From an uncultured Clostridia bacterium (GTDB lineage: Bacteria > Bacillota > Clostridia > Christensenellales > Borkfalkiaceae), in assembly GCA_947629515.1 (NCBI GenBank), contig CANRDY010000005.1:1-64000 (forward strand): 64,000 nt of DNA. The letters are read 5' to 3'. The first letter of the stretch is position 1; every line of letters begins with the position of its first letter. Below the pieces are notes generated by a model. It made no database searches. It was not told the origin of the DNA and was given only the letters and a program-made list of their open reading frames with translations. Shown here in pieces: positions 24,870 to 30,960 of the stretch. A program made the translations under genes and the position numbers.

Positions 24870-25103
24870 ATGGCACTCAAGAAATTGAACGATTTTTCGG
24901 TGGGAGAGAGCGGAAAGATAACCCGCGTAGATGGCGAGGGCAGAATACGCCGCAGGCTCTTCGACATGGGCGTAACGCCCGGGGCTGAGCTGACGATGCG
25001 CAAAAAAGCACCCCTCGGCGACCCCATCGAGATAACCATCAGGGGCTACGAGCTGACTTTGAGGAAGTCGGAGGCGGCATGCGTGGAGGTGGAAGTAAGA
25101 TGA
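24870..25103 (+). CDS. feoA: FeoA-family protein 2
   Basis: This is a 77-residue FeoA-domain protein with the complete family pattern: LNDFSVGESGKITRVDGEG, RRRLFDMGVTPGAELT, APLGDPIEITIRGYELTLRKSEA. It overlaps feoB by ATGA, so the two are translationally coupled. This makes it the more likely direct FeoB partner. An AAGGAG lies about 17 nt before the ATG, a longer spacing than usual. Confidence 0.93.
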   Translation: MALKKLNDFSVGESGKITRVDGEGRIRRRLFDMGVTPGAELTMRKKAPLGDPIEITIRGYELTLRKSEAACVEVEVR

Positions 25104-27424
25104 AGAATTTTGCACTGGCGGGCAACCCCAACTGCGGAAAGACAACTCTTTTCAACGCGCTTACGGGCGCGACGGCGCACGTCGGCAACTGGCCGGGCGT
25201 GACCGTCGACAAGCGCGAGGGCGTGTATAAGGGCGGTTCGGAGCACGTCTCCATAACCGACCTTCCCGGCATTTACTCGCTTTCGCCCTACACCCCCGAA
25301 GAAGTCATTTCGCGCAACTATCTGCTCGAAGAAAAGCCCTACGGCGTCATCAACATAGTCGACGCGACCAACCTCGAGAGGAACTTATACCTCACCACAC
25401 AGCTGCTCGAGACCGACGTGCCCGTCATAATCGCCCTGAACATGATAGACGAGGTCGAAAAAATCGGCGACAGGGTGGACGCAAAGGCACTTGAAAAGAA
25501 GCTCGGCGTGCCCGTTGTGGCGATCTCCGCCCTTAAAGGTACGGGTATAAAGGAACTCATGGAGAGGGCGATCGCACTGCCCGCAGAGAGGAAGGGAACG
25601 ACCGTTCTCGGCGGCGACTTCAAAGGCGCGATAGACGTCGCAAAGGAGTTCTATATTTCCGAGGGGGTAACTTCGCCCCTCTTCCACGCCGTAAAACTGC
25701 TCGAGAGCGACGAGATAGAGCTTGAACGCAAGGGCGCGCGGGAAGTTTTGAAAAGAGCGGCGGGCGGCAAGGACATGGAAGCCGAGGTCGCAGACCAAAG
25801 ATATAAATATATATCGTCCGATCTCGCCCCTGCAAAGATAAAGGCGGGGGGAGAGATCCTTACAAAATCGGATAAGATAGACAGAGTGCTCACCCACAGG
25901 GTGTGGGCGTTGCCCATATTCGCGGTTGTGCTGTTCCTTATATTCCACCTCACCTTTTCGGAGGACTTTCTGTACATAGGCGCGATCTGCAATGCGGCGG
26001 GCAACCCCCTGCCCTCGGTGGCGGAGCTGGGCTACACCCTTTCGGACGGCGAAACGCTTTCGGCGGCGGGAAGGACGATATCGGTCTTTTACGACGGCGC
26101 GGTGTTCTCGCCGGGGGTAATGCTGTTCAACGCGTTCGATATATCCACGGGCTGTCTTTTATATGAAATAGCGGCGGCGATGGAGAACGCGGGCGCGGCG
26201 GCATGGGCTTCGGGACTTGTCAACGACGGCATTTTGAGCGGTATATTCGCCGTTCTGGGCTTTTTGCCGCAGATACTCTGCCTTTTCCTCTTCTTCTCGA
26301 TACTCGAGGACTCGGGGTATATGGCGAGGATCGCATTCGTGCTCGACAGAATATTCAGAAGATTCGGGCTTTCGGGCAGGGCGTTCATGCCCATGATAAT
26401 GGGCTTCGGCTGTTCCCTTCCCGCCATAATAAACACGCGCACGCTCGCCGACGACAAGGAGCGGACGGCGACGATAAGGGTAATACCATTCTTTTCGTGC
26501 GGGGCTAAACTGCCCATACTCACCGCCATTGCGGGGGGAATAGTCACGGTGTTCGGCATAGGCAACGCCGACGTCATCACCTTTTCGATGTACATACTCG
26601 GCGTGTGCACGGCGATCACCGCCGTTCTGCTGATGAGGAACACGACGTTAAGGGGCGAAACGCCGCCGTTTATAATGGAACTTCCCGCCTATCATCTTCC
26701 CCGCTTTAAGAACCTGATGATCCACCTTTGGGATAAGACCAAGCACTTCGTCAAAAAGGCGTTCACCATAATCTTTGCTTCGACCGTAATAATTTGGCTG
26801 CTTTCGAGCATAACGTTCGATTGGAAGTTCATTGACGGCGAAGCCGTAAACAGGTTCGGCGAAGTACTTACAATGGAGGACAGTATACTCGCGGGAGTGG
26901 GTAAGTTCATACAGCCGCTGTTCACGCCGCTCGGCTTCGGTTCACAGCTCGGAAATTGGGGCTGGGTGTTCGCCGTAGCCGCCATAACGGGGCTTATCGC
27001 AAAGGAGAACGTCATCGCAACTTTCGCAACGCTTGCCGCGTGCATAGTGGCGGGCTTCGAGGGCACCGACGAGGGCGTGGAAGAAGCCGTTATAATGATA
27101 GAGAATACGGGAATAACCATACCCGCGCTCATAGCCTTTATAGCCTTTAACATGACCACCGTGCCCTGCTTTGCCGCGTGCGCCACGGCAAGGGCGGAAC
27201 TGCCCAAGGGCAAGTTCAGATGGACGCTCTTGTTCTGGGTGTGCACCTCGTTCGTGGTGGGATCGGTCATCTACACCGTGGGCAGTTGGTGGTGGACGCT
27301 GTTCATATGGCTTGCGGTTGCAGGAGTTGTAGTCACGCTGATAGTTCTTAGAAATTTGGGAAAATTCGATATATGTTCGGTGTTCCGCCGCAAAAAGAGT
27401 GACGTCGCCGACAAGGAGGGGTGA
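25100..27424 (+). CDS. feoB: Fe(II) transporter FeoB
   Basis: This ferrous-iron transporter has 774 residues. The N-terminal G domain shows G1 GNPNCGKTTLFN, the G3 region ITDLPGIYSLSPY and G4 LNMID. A GDI-like helical linker and a polytopic membrane domain follow, with the Gate motifs PMIMGFGCSLPAI and ATLAACIVAG and the Cys-containing TVPCFAACATARAE. The chosen ATG overlaps the feoA2 stop; a frame start 21 nt earlier lies inside feoA2. The Cys-rich FeoB-associated peptide follows at once. The operon imports Fe(II) in anaerobic conditions, serving Fe-S enzymes such as the hydrogenase encoded nearby. Confidence 0.97.
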   Translation: MKNFALAGNPNCGKTTLFNALTGATAHVGNWPGVTVDKREGVYKGGSEHVSITDLPGIYSLSPYTPEEVISRNYLLEEKPYGVINIVDATNLERNLYLTTQLLETDVPVIIALNMIDEVEKIGDRVDAKALEKKLGVPVVAISALKGTGIKELMERAIALPAERKGTTVLGGDFKGAIDVAKEFYISEGVTSPLFHAVKLLESDEIELERKGAREVLKRAAGGKDMEAEVADQRYKYISSDLAPAKIKAGGEILTKSDKIDRVLTHRVWALPIFAVVLFLIFHLTFSEDFLYIGAICNAAGNPLPSVAELGYTLSDGETLSAAGRTISVFYDGAVFSPGVMLFNAFDISTGCLLYEIAAAMENAGAAAWASGLVNDGILSGIFAVLGFLPQILCLFLFFSILEDSGYMARIAFVLDRIFRRFGLSGRAFMPMIMGFGCSLPAIINTRTLADDKERTATIRVIPFFSCGAKLPILTAIAGGIVTVFGIGNADVITFSMYILGVCTAITAVLLMRNTTLRGETPPFIMELPAYHLPRFKNLMIHLWDKTKHFVKKAFTIIFASTVIIWLLSSITFDWKFIDGEAVNRFGEVLTMEDSILAGVGKFIQPLFTPLGFGSQLGNWGWVFAVAAITGLIAKENVIATFATLAACIVAGFEGTDEGVEEAVIMIENTGITIPALIAFIAFNMTTVPCFAACATARAELPKGKFRWTLLFWVCTSFVVGSVIYTVGSWWWTLFIWLAVAGVVVTLIVLRNLGKFDICSVFRRKKSDVADKEG

Positions 27425-27425
27425 G

Positions 27426-27650
27426 ATGTCCGCCGTGGATATTGCGGTAATTGCGTGCGTGTGCGTTGCGGTCGTTGCCGTTGCGGGGTATCTTGTGTAT
27501 AAAAGGATAAAGCGCAAAAAGAGCGGCGGCGGCTGCGACTGCTGCGGGTGCTCGACATGCTCCGCTTGTTCCGCGTGCGCCAAAAAGGCGGGATCCCCGA
27601 ACGCTTCGGATCGTGAGGAAGCGGGGGGAACGCATACCGAACGCTCGTAG
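27426..27650 (+). CDS. FeoB-associated Cys-rich membrane protein
   Basis: This 74-residue peptide has one N-terminal membrane helix (about 3-25), a basic KRIKRKK stop-transfer, a cysteine cluster CDCCGCSTCSACSAC (about 37-51) and a polar tail. That organisation matches the small FeoB-associated family found downstream of feoB in Firmicutes, thought to help Fe(II) handling. Its start lies 1 nt after the feoB stop. Confidence 0.88.
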   Translation: MSAVDIAVIACVCVAVVAVAGYLVYKRIKRKKSGGGCDCCGCSTCSACSACAKKAGSPNASDREEAGGTHTERS

Positions 27651-28319: not shown

Positions 28320-28357
28320 GCGGCGTGGCGGGCTGTGGAAACAGCCCGCCACGCCGC
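28320..28357 (+). terminator. Terminator-like hairpin at the A/B repeat junction
   Basis: GCGGCGTGGCGGGCTG pairs with CAGCCCGCCACGCCGC. A hairpin of this kind stands at nearly every junction between an A element and a B unit. Confidence 0.55.
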
Positions 28358-28361
28358 TTAA

Positions 28362-28585
28362 TGTTGAACAGCCTATGCGCTCGTTTTGCTTCAACGCCGT
28401 TAAGAAACTTGATTAAGCGGAACGCTTACTTGCGTTGAACAGCCTATGCGCTCGTCTTGCTTCCCCGCCGTTAAGAATTACGACCGCGGCGGCACGCCGC
28501 TCAAGTGGAACGCTTGCTCGCGTTGAACCGCTTACACGCCGTATTGCCTAAACGCCGTTAAGAAACTTGGTTAAGCGGAACGCTT
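28362..28585 (-). repeat. Repeat B, three units, minus orientation
   Basis: Each unit starts GTTGAAC and contains CGCCGTTAAGAA and a 3' hairpin. Units 1 and 3 carry AAGCGGAACGCTT. Unit 2 adds GCGGCGGCACGCCGC, showing that the hairpin is exchangeable. Confidence 0.8.
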
Positions 28586-28632: not shown

Positions 28633-28661
28633 TTGACAATTTGTTTTTGCCGTGGTATATT
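28633..28661 (+). promoter_or_regulatory. Promoter of the zinc-ribbon membrane protein gene
   Basis: TTGACA (28633-28638), a 17-nt spacer and TATATT (28656-28661). It predicts a leader of about 300 nt. Confidence 0.75.
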
Positions 28662-28689
28662 TAGGTTACCACAACACTTACAACTTAAT

Positions 28690-28936
28690 ATAACGGCACG
28701 GTATTTTTATGCTCTTTTTTGGGTTCGAACGCCCGAAAGTCAAATACAAATACCTCATTTTTGGTATACTTTATATCAAAAATGTCGATTATGTACACAG
28801 CAATAAATATAGCATTGCGTATCTCCTGCTGTGTACTTTGATTGACGATTTTTTCGTGCTGATAAGTTGTGAGTGGTGTGGTAACCGAAAGAGATACCGT
28901 GCGGTGTGCTCTCTCGGGAGCACACCTTATTTTTTA
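28690..28936 (+). promoter_or_regulatory. Riboswitch-like structured leader with intrinsic terminator
   Basis: GCACGGTAT (28696-28704) can pair with ATACCGTGC (28894-28902), closing a domain of about 200 nt like a P1 helix. Inside are the hairpins CATTTTTG/CAAAAATG (28756-28784) and GTACACAGCA/TGCTGTGTAC (28793-28836). Directly after P1 comes a 9-bp terminator stem GGTGTGCTC/GAGCACACC (28903-28926) followed by TTATTTTTT. The gene's SD and ATG lie 30-40 nt beyond. It matches no riboswitch consensus that I can recall. Confidence 0.6.
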
Positions 28937-28968
28937 CGCCGCACAAAAAAATTTTACGGAGGAAATCT

Positions 28969-30960
28969 ATGAACAAGTGTCCCAAATGCGGAACCGAATT
29001 CGAGGGAACTTTCTGTCCCGAGTGCGGCGAAAAATTTTCGGAAAGCAAAAAATGCCCCAAATGCGGTAACGAGTGCGCGGGCGGGGTCAAGTTTTGCCCT
29101 GCCTGCGGCTATGACTTTTACGGCAAAAAGGAGCAGGCAACGCCCGCCGCGCCCGCCGCGCCCGCCGCGGGCGCGGCGGGCGCAAAAAAGGCGGCTGAAT
29201 TCAGCGAACACGCAAAGGCGCCGTTCGGCAAACTGCATAAAATTTTGAATTGGTTGCCCGCTCTGCTGTTCGCGCTGTTTTCGGCGCTTACGTTCGCGTT
29301 CTTTGCCGCGCCCGTCGCGGTAATGACCGACGGCGGCCTGGGAGAGTTGCTCGGTGGCGGCTCTATGTCCGAAAGTTTCGGCAATATGTATTCGGCTTAT
29401 TCGGGGCAGATAACCGACCTGCCCTTAAAGGGTTGCGGCGTGGCGGCTATGGTGTTTGCCGTGCTCTCGATCGTGCCCGTCGTATGTGCGGCTGTCTTTC
29501 TGCTGGTAAGATATCTTTCGGCAAGCGACGGGTCGTCCGTCCGCGTAAACGCCTTTGCCCGTGCAAAGCGCGCCGTATCGAAGAGTGCGGAAATATATTC
29601 ATATGTTATATACATTGTTTTTGTAATAATTTCCGCCGTCATAATGGGCAAGACGGGCGAAGCCGACGAGGGCGCGGGCTTGCTTTCGGCGGGTGCGGGA
29701 ACGATACTTCTGATGGTTTTTCCGCTAGTGTTTGCGGCAATCGCGCTGGGCGGAAAGCTGTTCGACAGACTTTACATTCTTAACCATTTCCCCGAACTTG
29801 CGACAAAGAAGATAGAACCGCTGCCCGCTATCCCCTATACGGGCAAAGAACCCGCCTCGCCCGAAAACATTGAAAAGCCCTCGCGCAAAAGTTCGCCCGC
29901 ATATAATGAGAAAGTATTACAGAATTATCTGCGTTTCAGACGATTGTCAATATTGCTATCGTTGTTTTTGTTTGTGACAAGCGTATTTTTATTTTTTCTG
30001 TTTAATTTGAACCATAACGATAATGTGTCCAATTCGATACAAGCACTACTTATAATTTTATTTATTCTGGCTTGCGCAAGTCTGATATTATTTCCGCATA
30101 TAAAGAACGCGAAAATATTGAACGTAAACGCTAAATTGAAATCTTCTTTCCCATGGTGTGTTATCTTTTGGATAATAGGTGTAATTATGGGTTTGATATG
30201 GTTTTATAATATTAATAACGCATTTTATCATCAATATTGGGCTGATATGAAAGGCTTTTCTCTGTTGGCGTCGGTCGTATATCCGATATTGGCTGCATTG
30301 AGTATATATTGCATATTCGTCTACTGTCTGTTGTTCTCGGCGGCTAAGAGTTACAGAGAGACATTTTACGGTTCAACCAAATATACCGACGGTATGAGTA
30401 TGACTGCTTATGGAAAAGAATTTATCGAAAAGCAAAAAGCCTATTTGGAGAAGATACGCCGATATGAAGCATATAAACCGGTATTAACGGCACACAAAGT
30501 TTCAATGGATAAATATAACTTTGAAAAATCAATGTGCGAGGCGGGGGAAGATTACCGCGATAAAAAGGCAAGGCGTGCGTTTTGGTTTCGCACTCATAAA
30601 TTGGCGACTGCGGGTATTGCGCTTGCCGCGGCGGCGGTCATAACCATTGCCGTAGTGTTGCCTGTGACCGTGACGTTGCCGGGCGGCGGGCTTGACGGCA
30701 CGTATTACGCCTATCGCTCCGAGACATATGATGAGAACAATTACATAATCATCTCGGGGAACACGTGGAAAGATGACGACGATATGAGCGGCACGTTGCA
30801 GAGGAACGGCGACTCGCTCTCGTTCACGTATGACTTTTTCGGCAGTACCGAAGAGCTTTACAGCGGGACGTACATTTCCGAGGGCGTGATACAGCTCAAG
30901 GTTTCCGCGGTGAGCACGGTGTATTATTGCGTTAAGGGGAAAGTTCCGCCGAAGGAATAG
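28969..30960 (+). CDS. Zinc-ribbon polytopic membrane protein
   Basis: This is a 663-residue protein of unknown function. Two double-Cys zinc ribbons are at the N-terminus (about 1-50, CPKCGTEF...CPECG and CPKCGNE...CPACGYDF). An Ala/Pro/Gly linker leads to about nine membrane helices, a charged cytoplasmic segment (about 480-545), a last helix (about 545-570) and an extracytoplasmic C-terminal domain of about 90 residues starting GGGLDGTYYAYRSE. The start is the ATG after a GGAGG. The stretch from about 29900 to 30540 is clearly more AT-rich, with different codon use. It may act in envelope sensing or homeostasis. Confidence 0.8.
   Translation: MNKCPKCGTEFEGTFCPECGEKFSESKKCPKCGNECAGGVKFCPACGYDFYGKKEQATPAAPAAPAAGAAGAKKAAEFSEHAKAPFGKLHKILNWLPALLFALFSALTFAFFAAPVAVMTDGGLGELLGGGSMSESFGNMYSAYSGQITDLPLKGCGVAAMVFAVLSIVPVVCAAVFLLVRYLSASDGSSVRVNAFARAKRAVSKSAEIYSYVIYIVFVIISAVIMGKTGEADEGAGLLSAGAGTILLMVFPLVFAAIALGGKLFDRLYILNHFPELATKKIEPLPAIPYTGKEPASPENIEKPSRKSSPAYNEKVLQNYLRFRRLSILLSLFLFVTSVFLFFLFNLNHNDNVSNSIQALLIILFILACASLILFPHIKNAKILNVNAKLKSSFPWCVIFWIIGVIMGLIWFYNINNAFYHQYWADMKGFSLLASVVYPILAALSIYCIFVYCLLFSAAKSYRETFYGSTKYTDGMSMTAYGKEFIEKQKAYLEKIRRYEAYKPVLTAHKVSMDKYNFEKSMCEAGEDYRDKKARRAFWFRTHKLATAGIALAAAAVITIAVVLPVTVTLPGGGLDGTYYAYRSETYDENNYIIISGNTWKDDDDMSGTLQRNGDSLSFTYDFFGSTEELYSGTYISEGVIQLKVSAVSTVYYCVKGKVPPKE

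Follow-up and report, generated by a model that had tools for sequence, protein, structure and literature searches.

The leader of a zinc-ribbon membrane protein gene in an uncultured Clostridia bacterium (Borkfalkiaceae) is very probably a cis-acting transcription attenuator, built on an exchange between a pseudoknot and an antiterminator and belonging to an RNA family that is apparently undescribed. The window analysed here is a 64,000-nt stretch of contig CANRDY010000005.1 (GCA_947629515.1). At the level of sequence comparison, P1, the pseudoknot, the antiterminator, the terminator and the placement of the promoter are established across copies of the RNA; we infer that the RNA passes between its two states inside the cell and that the pseudoknot corresponds to the off state.

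The leader and its gene in the window

The stretch from 28664 to 28942 folds at −111.2 kcal/mol (z −10.6 relative to dinucleotide shuffles), with the long helix P1 beginning directly downstream of a consensus promoter (Table 1). An earlier note had described a riboswitch-like attenuator at 28690–28936, an interval whose own fold reaches z −7.7 against dinucleotide shuffles; z drops to −10.6, and the larger helix appears, once the stretch reaches back to the promoter. An attenuation leader proved to be the right kind of explanation, whereas the anatomy had to be redrawn with a different P1 and with domain boundaries that start further 5′. Several of the parts named at that time were recovered, namely the internal hairpins in our folds (28716–28739, 28757–28783 and 28793–28836), the adjacent terminator with its U-run, a spacing of about 43 nt between the terminator and the ATG at 28969, and the zinc-ribbon membrane protein downstream, in which Pfam zinc ribbons and membrane segments were found. 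Our drawing of P3 departs from the minimum-energy fold, in which 28800–28802 are paired with 28827–28829.

Just 5′ of the leader lie a perfect 17-bp hairpin (28320–28357) and imperfect direct repeats of 37–46 nt (28363–28585). Further upstream on the same strand, 24870–27650 encodes FeoA, FeoB and a FeoB-associated cysteine-rich protein, with nothing to connect them to the leader.

Table 1. Features of the leader and the regulated gene, in window coordinates
Feature	Position	Strand	Description and basis
Promoter	28633–28661	+	TTGACA, 17 nt, TATATT; TG ahead of the −10 box; 11 of 12 consensus matches
P1, 5′ strand	28664–28687	+	10 + 13 bp (28664–28673/28877–28886 and 28675–28687/28863–28875); fold, family-wide covariation
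P1, 3′ strand	28863–28886	+	Fold
P1 inner extension, 5′ strand	28694–28699	+	Partner 28856–28861; fold; includes part of the 5′ strand of the helix in the earlier note
Extra domain of long copies	28700–28783	+	28700–28710/28744–28754 with hairpin 28716–28739, then hairpin 28757–28783; fold; missing from short copies
P2 enclosing P3	28784–28846	+	P2 is 28784–28799/28830–28846; fold adjusted to the family arrangement
Hairpin P3	28800–28804/28814–28818	+	Loop ends AGC at 28811–28813
Pseudoknot, 5′ strand GUAUCUC	28819–28825	+	Partner 28891–28897; covaries in distant copies
Pseudoknot, 3′ strand GAGAUAC	28891–28897	+	Also part of the antiterminator; the disputed strand
Antiterminator, 5′ strand CCGAAAGAGAUAC	28885–28897	+	Partner 28904–28917; 12 pairs (28885–28888/28914–28917, 28890–28893/28909–28912, 28894–28897/28904–28907)
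Antiterminator, 3′ strand	28904–28917	+	Terminator 5′ arm and loop
Intrinsic terminator and U-run	28903–28935	+	Stem 28903–28912/28917–28926
Ribosome-binding site GGAGG	28958–28962	+	Sequence
Regulated gene, 663 aa	28969–30960	+	Double zinc ribbon plus membrane segments; Pfam Zn_ribbon_3, Zn_Ribbon_1

Copies of the RNA and their shared anatomy

In all, 136 copies of the leader were collected. Related leaders occur at seven further places in the window's own genome, and the first search of relatives found them in seven more genomes of the genus; the 60 distinct copies collected at genus level come, where the records are named, from uncultured Clostridia. A first covariance model, built from 16 short copies with the window left out, gave a single match in the window (28751–28898, E 1.2e-8) and matched genomes of other genera as well as 39 of the 93 searched within the genus. 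Two further models, R2 and R3, were derived from distant copies. R2 matched 120 of 301 family genomes, representing 10 of the 18 genera sampled, and at class level 49 of 391 genomes, representing 32 of the 222 genera sampled. With R3, 16 positive class genomes were found to contain between 1 and 20 copies each; in a separate, smaller class sample it matched 15 of 60 genomes. Phylum-wide, R3 matched none of 399 genomes, a result that does not prove absence, as only eight candidates were scored per genome and none of the genomes sampled was a known positive. Two of the 54 loci found by pattern (Tateyamaria and Herbinix) were rejected as probable chance matches.

Viral collections yielded no copies of the genus or family type; class-type copies were seen on two IMG/VR contigs, L200 (6411–6540, 58.9 bits) and L201 (11220–11327, 24.9 bits). 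At L150 (1501–1602 and 1679–1779) and L191, a single gene is preceded by two complete units in tandem, both equipped with a promoter and a terminator of their own, and L152 likewise has two such units ahead of its gene, the first of them strongly diverged.

In the copies the parts come in one common order: promoter, P1, junction, P2, P3, a GUAUCUC-type strand, P2′, P1′, a GAGAUAC-type strand, terminator, ribosome site and gene. In 106 of 132 copies the −10 box ends 5 nt 5′ of the conserved P1 start, a −35 box was found in 98 of 132 copies versus 9 of 126 control stretches, and 134 of the 136 copies have an intrinsic terminator. The junction reads AATA in 116 of 136 copies, while P2 is variable and the P3 loop ends in RGC or GGY; the strand following P3 is typically GUAUCUC and that following P1′ typically GAGAUAC. 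Long copies, the window's among them, carry an additional domain between P1 and P2. With regard to leader-peptide attenuation, which would call for a short translated reading frame in the leader, P1 starts at about +1, so that there is no room for a ribosome site 5′ of it, and 24 of the 136 leaders have no ATG, the one start codon scored, from the start of P1 to the end of the pseudoknot.

Compensatory changes in three helices

Compensatory changes in the copies support three helices, P1, the pseudoknot and the antiterminator. For P1, two-sided changes were seen in 8 of 12 pairs among 23 class-level copies (37 cells versus 8.1 in shuffles) and in 8 of 13 pairs among 16 family-level copies (20 versus 5.3), and in genus-level copies the mean pairing energy of the variable inner part of P1 is −14.7 kcal/mol with its own partner strand versus −6.2 kcal/mol with swapped partners. 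A strand swap between P1 and the terminator, both of which contain GGUGUG, was also considered; in distant copies, however, P1 changes with no matching change in the terminator, and the idea was dropped.

The pseudoknot pairing is near-invariant within the genus (z 0.6), and its support comes only from more distant copies. There, both sides are altered in such variants as GUACCUC/GGGGUAC, GCGUCUC/GAGACGC and GUGUGUC/GACACGC, and a comparison of own with swapped partners across 19 divergent representatives gave z −6.4. The same kind of comparison for the antiterminator, with 25 representatives separated by four edits or more, gave a mean of −14.7 kcal/mol for own partners versus −8.9 kcal/mol for swapped ones (z −9.9, with 0 of 5000 permutations as good), and a control stretch 3′ of the terminator gave z 0.0, all of these swaps leaving some sequence relatedness in place. 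Antiterminator variants include CAUGAAGAGA/UCUCUUCAUG (L126), CAAUGAGAGAUAC/GUGUCUCUUAUUG (L168), CAAAUUCGGAGAUAC/GUGUUUCCGGAUUUG (L110) and CCUUUUAGAGAUAC/GUGUCUUUAAAAGG (L008).

In three class-level copies (L164, L167 and L181) the pseudoknot seems to be extended: the 3′ strand of P3, AAAAAUGC, can pair with GCAUUUUU, which sits between the pseudoknot and the terminator, and this pairing would compete with P3.

A model for the exchange and its effector

The strand GAGAUAC is used by both the pseudoknot and the antiterminator, and the two are therefore mutually exclusive. Two features by which riboswitches are recognized are found here, namely a structured domain that is conserved within the 5′ leader and, from the shared strand and the swap tests, an expression platform that excludes an aptamer helix. 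In the model that we propose, transcription would start at P1 or within a few bases of it, and the RNA would form a P1–P2–P3 rod, after which GUAUCUC beside P3 and GAGAUAC just 3′ of P1 could pair as the pseudoknot. With GAGAUAC sequestered in this way, the terminator would fold and the gene would be off; if the pseudoknot does not form, CCGAA together with GAGAUAC would pair with the 5′ arm and loop of the terminator as the antiterminator, and the gene would be on. When the window leader is folded statically, with the pseudoknot left out of the count, the antiterminator state lies at −97.9 kcal/mol versus −111.2 kcal/mol for the terminator state. Since the antiterminator state is the less stable of the two in this fold, the exchange would need a kinetic or effector drive.

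As to what drives it, we lean towards a small molecule or an ion, because of the conserved unpaired elements and the kind of switch; a general signal is most likely, because many envelope genes are governed at once. Less probably, what operates the same attenuator is a protein or trans-acting RNA bound to P3 or to the pseudoknot. A large part of the RNA does vary in sequence, and a dedicated regulator would equally account for a multigene envelope regulon, but the short conserved unpaired elements (the AATA junction, the P3 loop and CUCUU), together with the pseudoknot, are typical of aptamers. We regard as improbable a device with no effector at all, such as a thermosensor or a kinetic set-point that merely reduces expression. 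Such a device would suit the very stable helices and the strong terminator, but a fixed terminator would not need the compensatory changes by which divergent copies maintain its alternative pairing.

More doubtful still is the P1 of the earlier note, in which GCACGGTAT (28696–28704) and ATACCGTGC (28894–28902) closed the domain and switched with the adjoining terminator. The two strands are indeed an exact 9-bp complement in the window, and all nine pairs are kept in 3 of 12 long copies, the window among them. However, a stretch comparable to the 5′ strand is present in only 12 of 64 genus-level copies and absent from the other 52, and of those 12 copies, 9 have an uncompensated mismatch and none a two-sided change. 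The complement also crosses the larger conserved P1, whose strands lie partly outside the interval of the earlier note, and it was rejected as a closing helix for its lack of conservation among the genus-level copies. The expectation that leaders of orthologous genes would covary held for the leaders themselves, two genus-level homologues of the window's zinc-ribbon membrane protein (L029 and L035) carrying the same leader, but not for this helix. Least likely of all is an inverted-repeat mobile element with a chance promoter and P1 as its terminal repeats, which would fit multiple copies with conserved ends and a variable middle but not the fixed distance to the −10 box, the terminator immediately 3′ in nearly all copies or the compensatory changes in three helices.

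Comparison with described RNAs

The attenuator proposed here, with its pseudoknot and antiterminator competing for one strand, was compared with described RNAs. Against the 4227 families of Rfam 15, with each family's gathering threshold as the criterion, no family scored over threshold on the window leader or on the RNA at 20 class-level loci, in agreement with the earlier impression that no known class could be recognized. Permissive scans of two homologues returned only sub-threshold, unrelated models (eukaryotic microRNA, snoRNA and lncRNA, and a plasmid antisense RNA), and no description of this RNA was found in the main texts of open-licence papers.

Like the T-box, the RNA is a Clostridia leader with a terminator/antiterminator exchange. 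It differs in having no Rfam match to the T-box at the window leader or the 20 class-level loci, in a P3 loop that ends in RGC or GGY in place of the conserved UGGN bulge, and in preceding envelope genes as opposed to amino-acid genes; to read the P3 loop as a T-box-like UGGN was considered and rejected, as the U is not conserved. The c-di-GMP riboswitches provide a case in which one signal controls surface genes of Clostridia through multiple copies of an RNA. This multicopy control of surface genes would be shared by the RNA described here, but its architecture differs and no covariance-model match was found. In transcriptional riboswitches of the preQ1-I type, the 3′ tail takes part in either a pseudoknot or an antiterminator, and formation of the pseudoknot frees the terminator. 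A 3′ tail serving pseudoknot or antiterminator is likewise seen in the family of the window, which differs in its long P1–P2–P3 rod of about 90–260 nt, in a pseudoknot that links an internal strand to the tail, in the lack of an Rfam match and in genes unrelated to queuosine. The preQ1-I type class is reviewed in PMC11625349.

The SLH motif, a riboswitch candidate found 5′ of surface-protein genes, partly in Clostridia, has about 60% of its copies before S-layer-homology genes (PMC6429828). The surface-gene theme in Clostridia is common to both RNAs, but their gene associations, on which this comparison was made, speak against identity. The Pfam hits listed for 112 downstream proteins include no SLH family, and none were found in the window's own genome. 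Conversely, at 30 loci with SLH domains the RNA was present at one, where it lies 3′ of the domain, and an association with SLH was rejected.

The downstream genes and a possible common regulon

By a rough hydropathy rule, about 110 of 121 downstream proteins look exported or membrane-bound. Among the 112 downstream proteins searched with Pfam, BspA-type leucine-rich repeats were found in 36, zinc ribbons in 9 and copper amine oxidase N-terminal domains in 4, with LiaF and a ZIP transporter among those seen once each. By eye, there is a likeness between the C-terminal end of the protein encoded at 28969–30960 (LDGTYYAYRSE...) and that of a lipoprotein at L046, whose gene follows the same type of leader.

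Taken at its widest, the sequence evidence gives about an even chance that these leaders are riboswitches of a large class in Clostridia that has yet to be described, with as many as about 20 copies in a genome, which would sense an unrecognised general signal and set the repertoire of surface proteins through the pseudoknot/antiterminator exchange. That a family spread across the class, and reaching 20 copies in a genome, is missing from the catalogue is a notable gap. The model of the exchange is so specific that a few base changes would suffice to test it. The family also implies that, in uncultured Clostridia, leucine-rich-repeat lipoproteins of the surface share one regulon with zinc-ribbon membrane proteins, and it points to a signal that the RNA itself could help to hunt.
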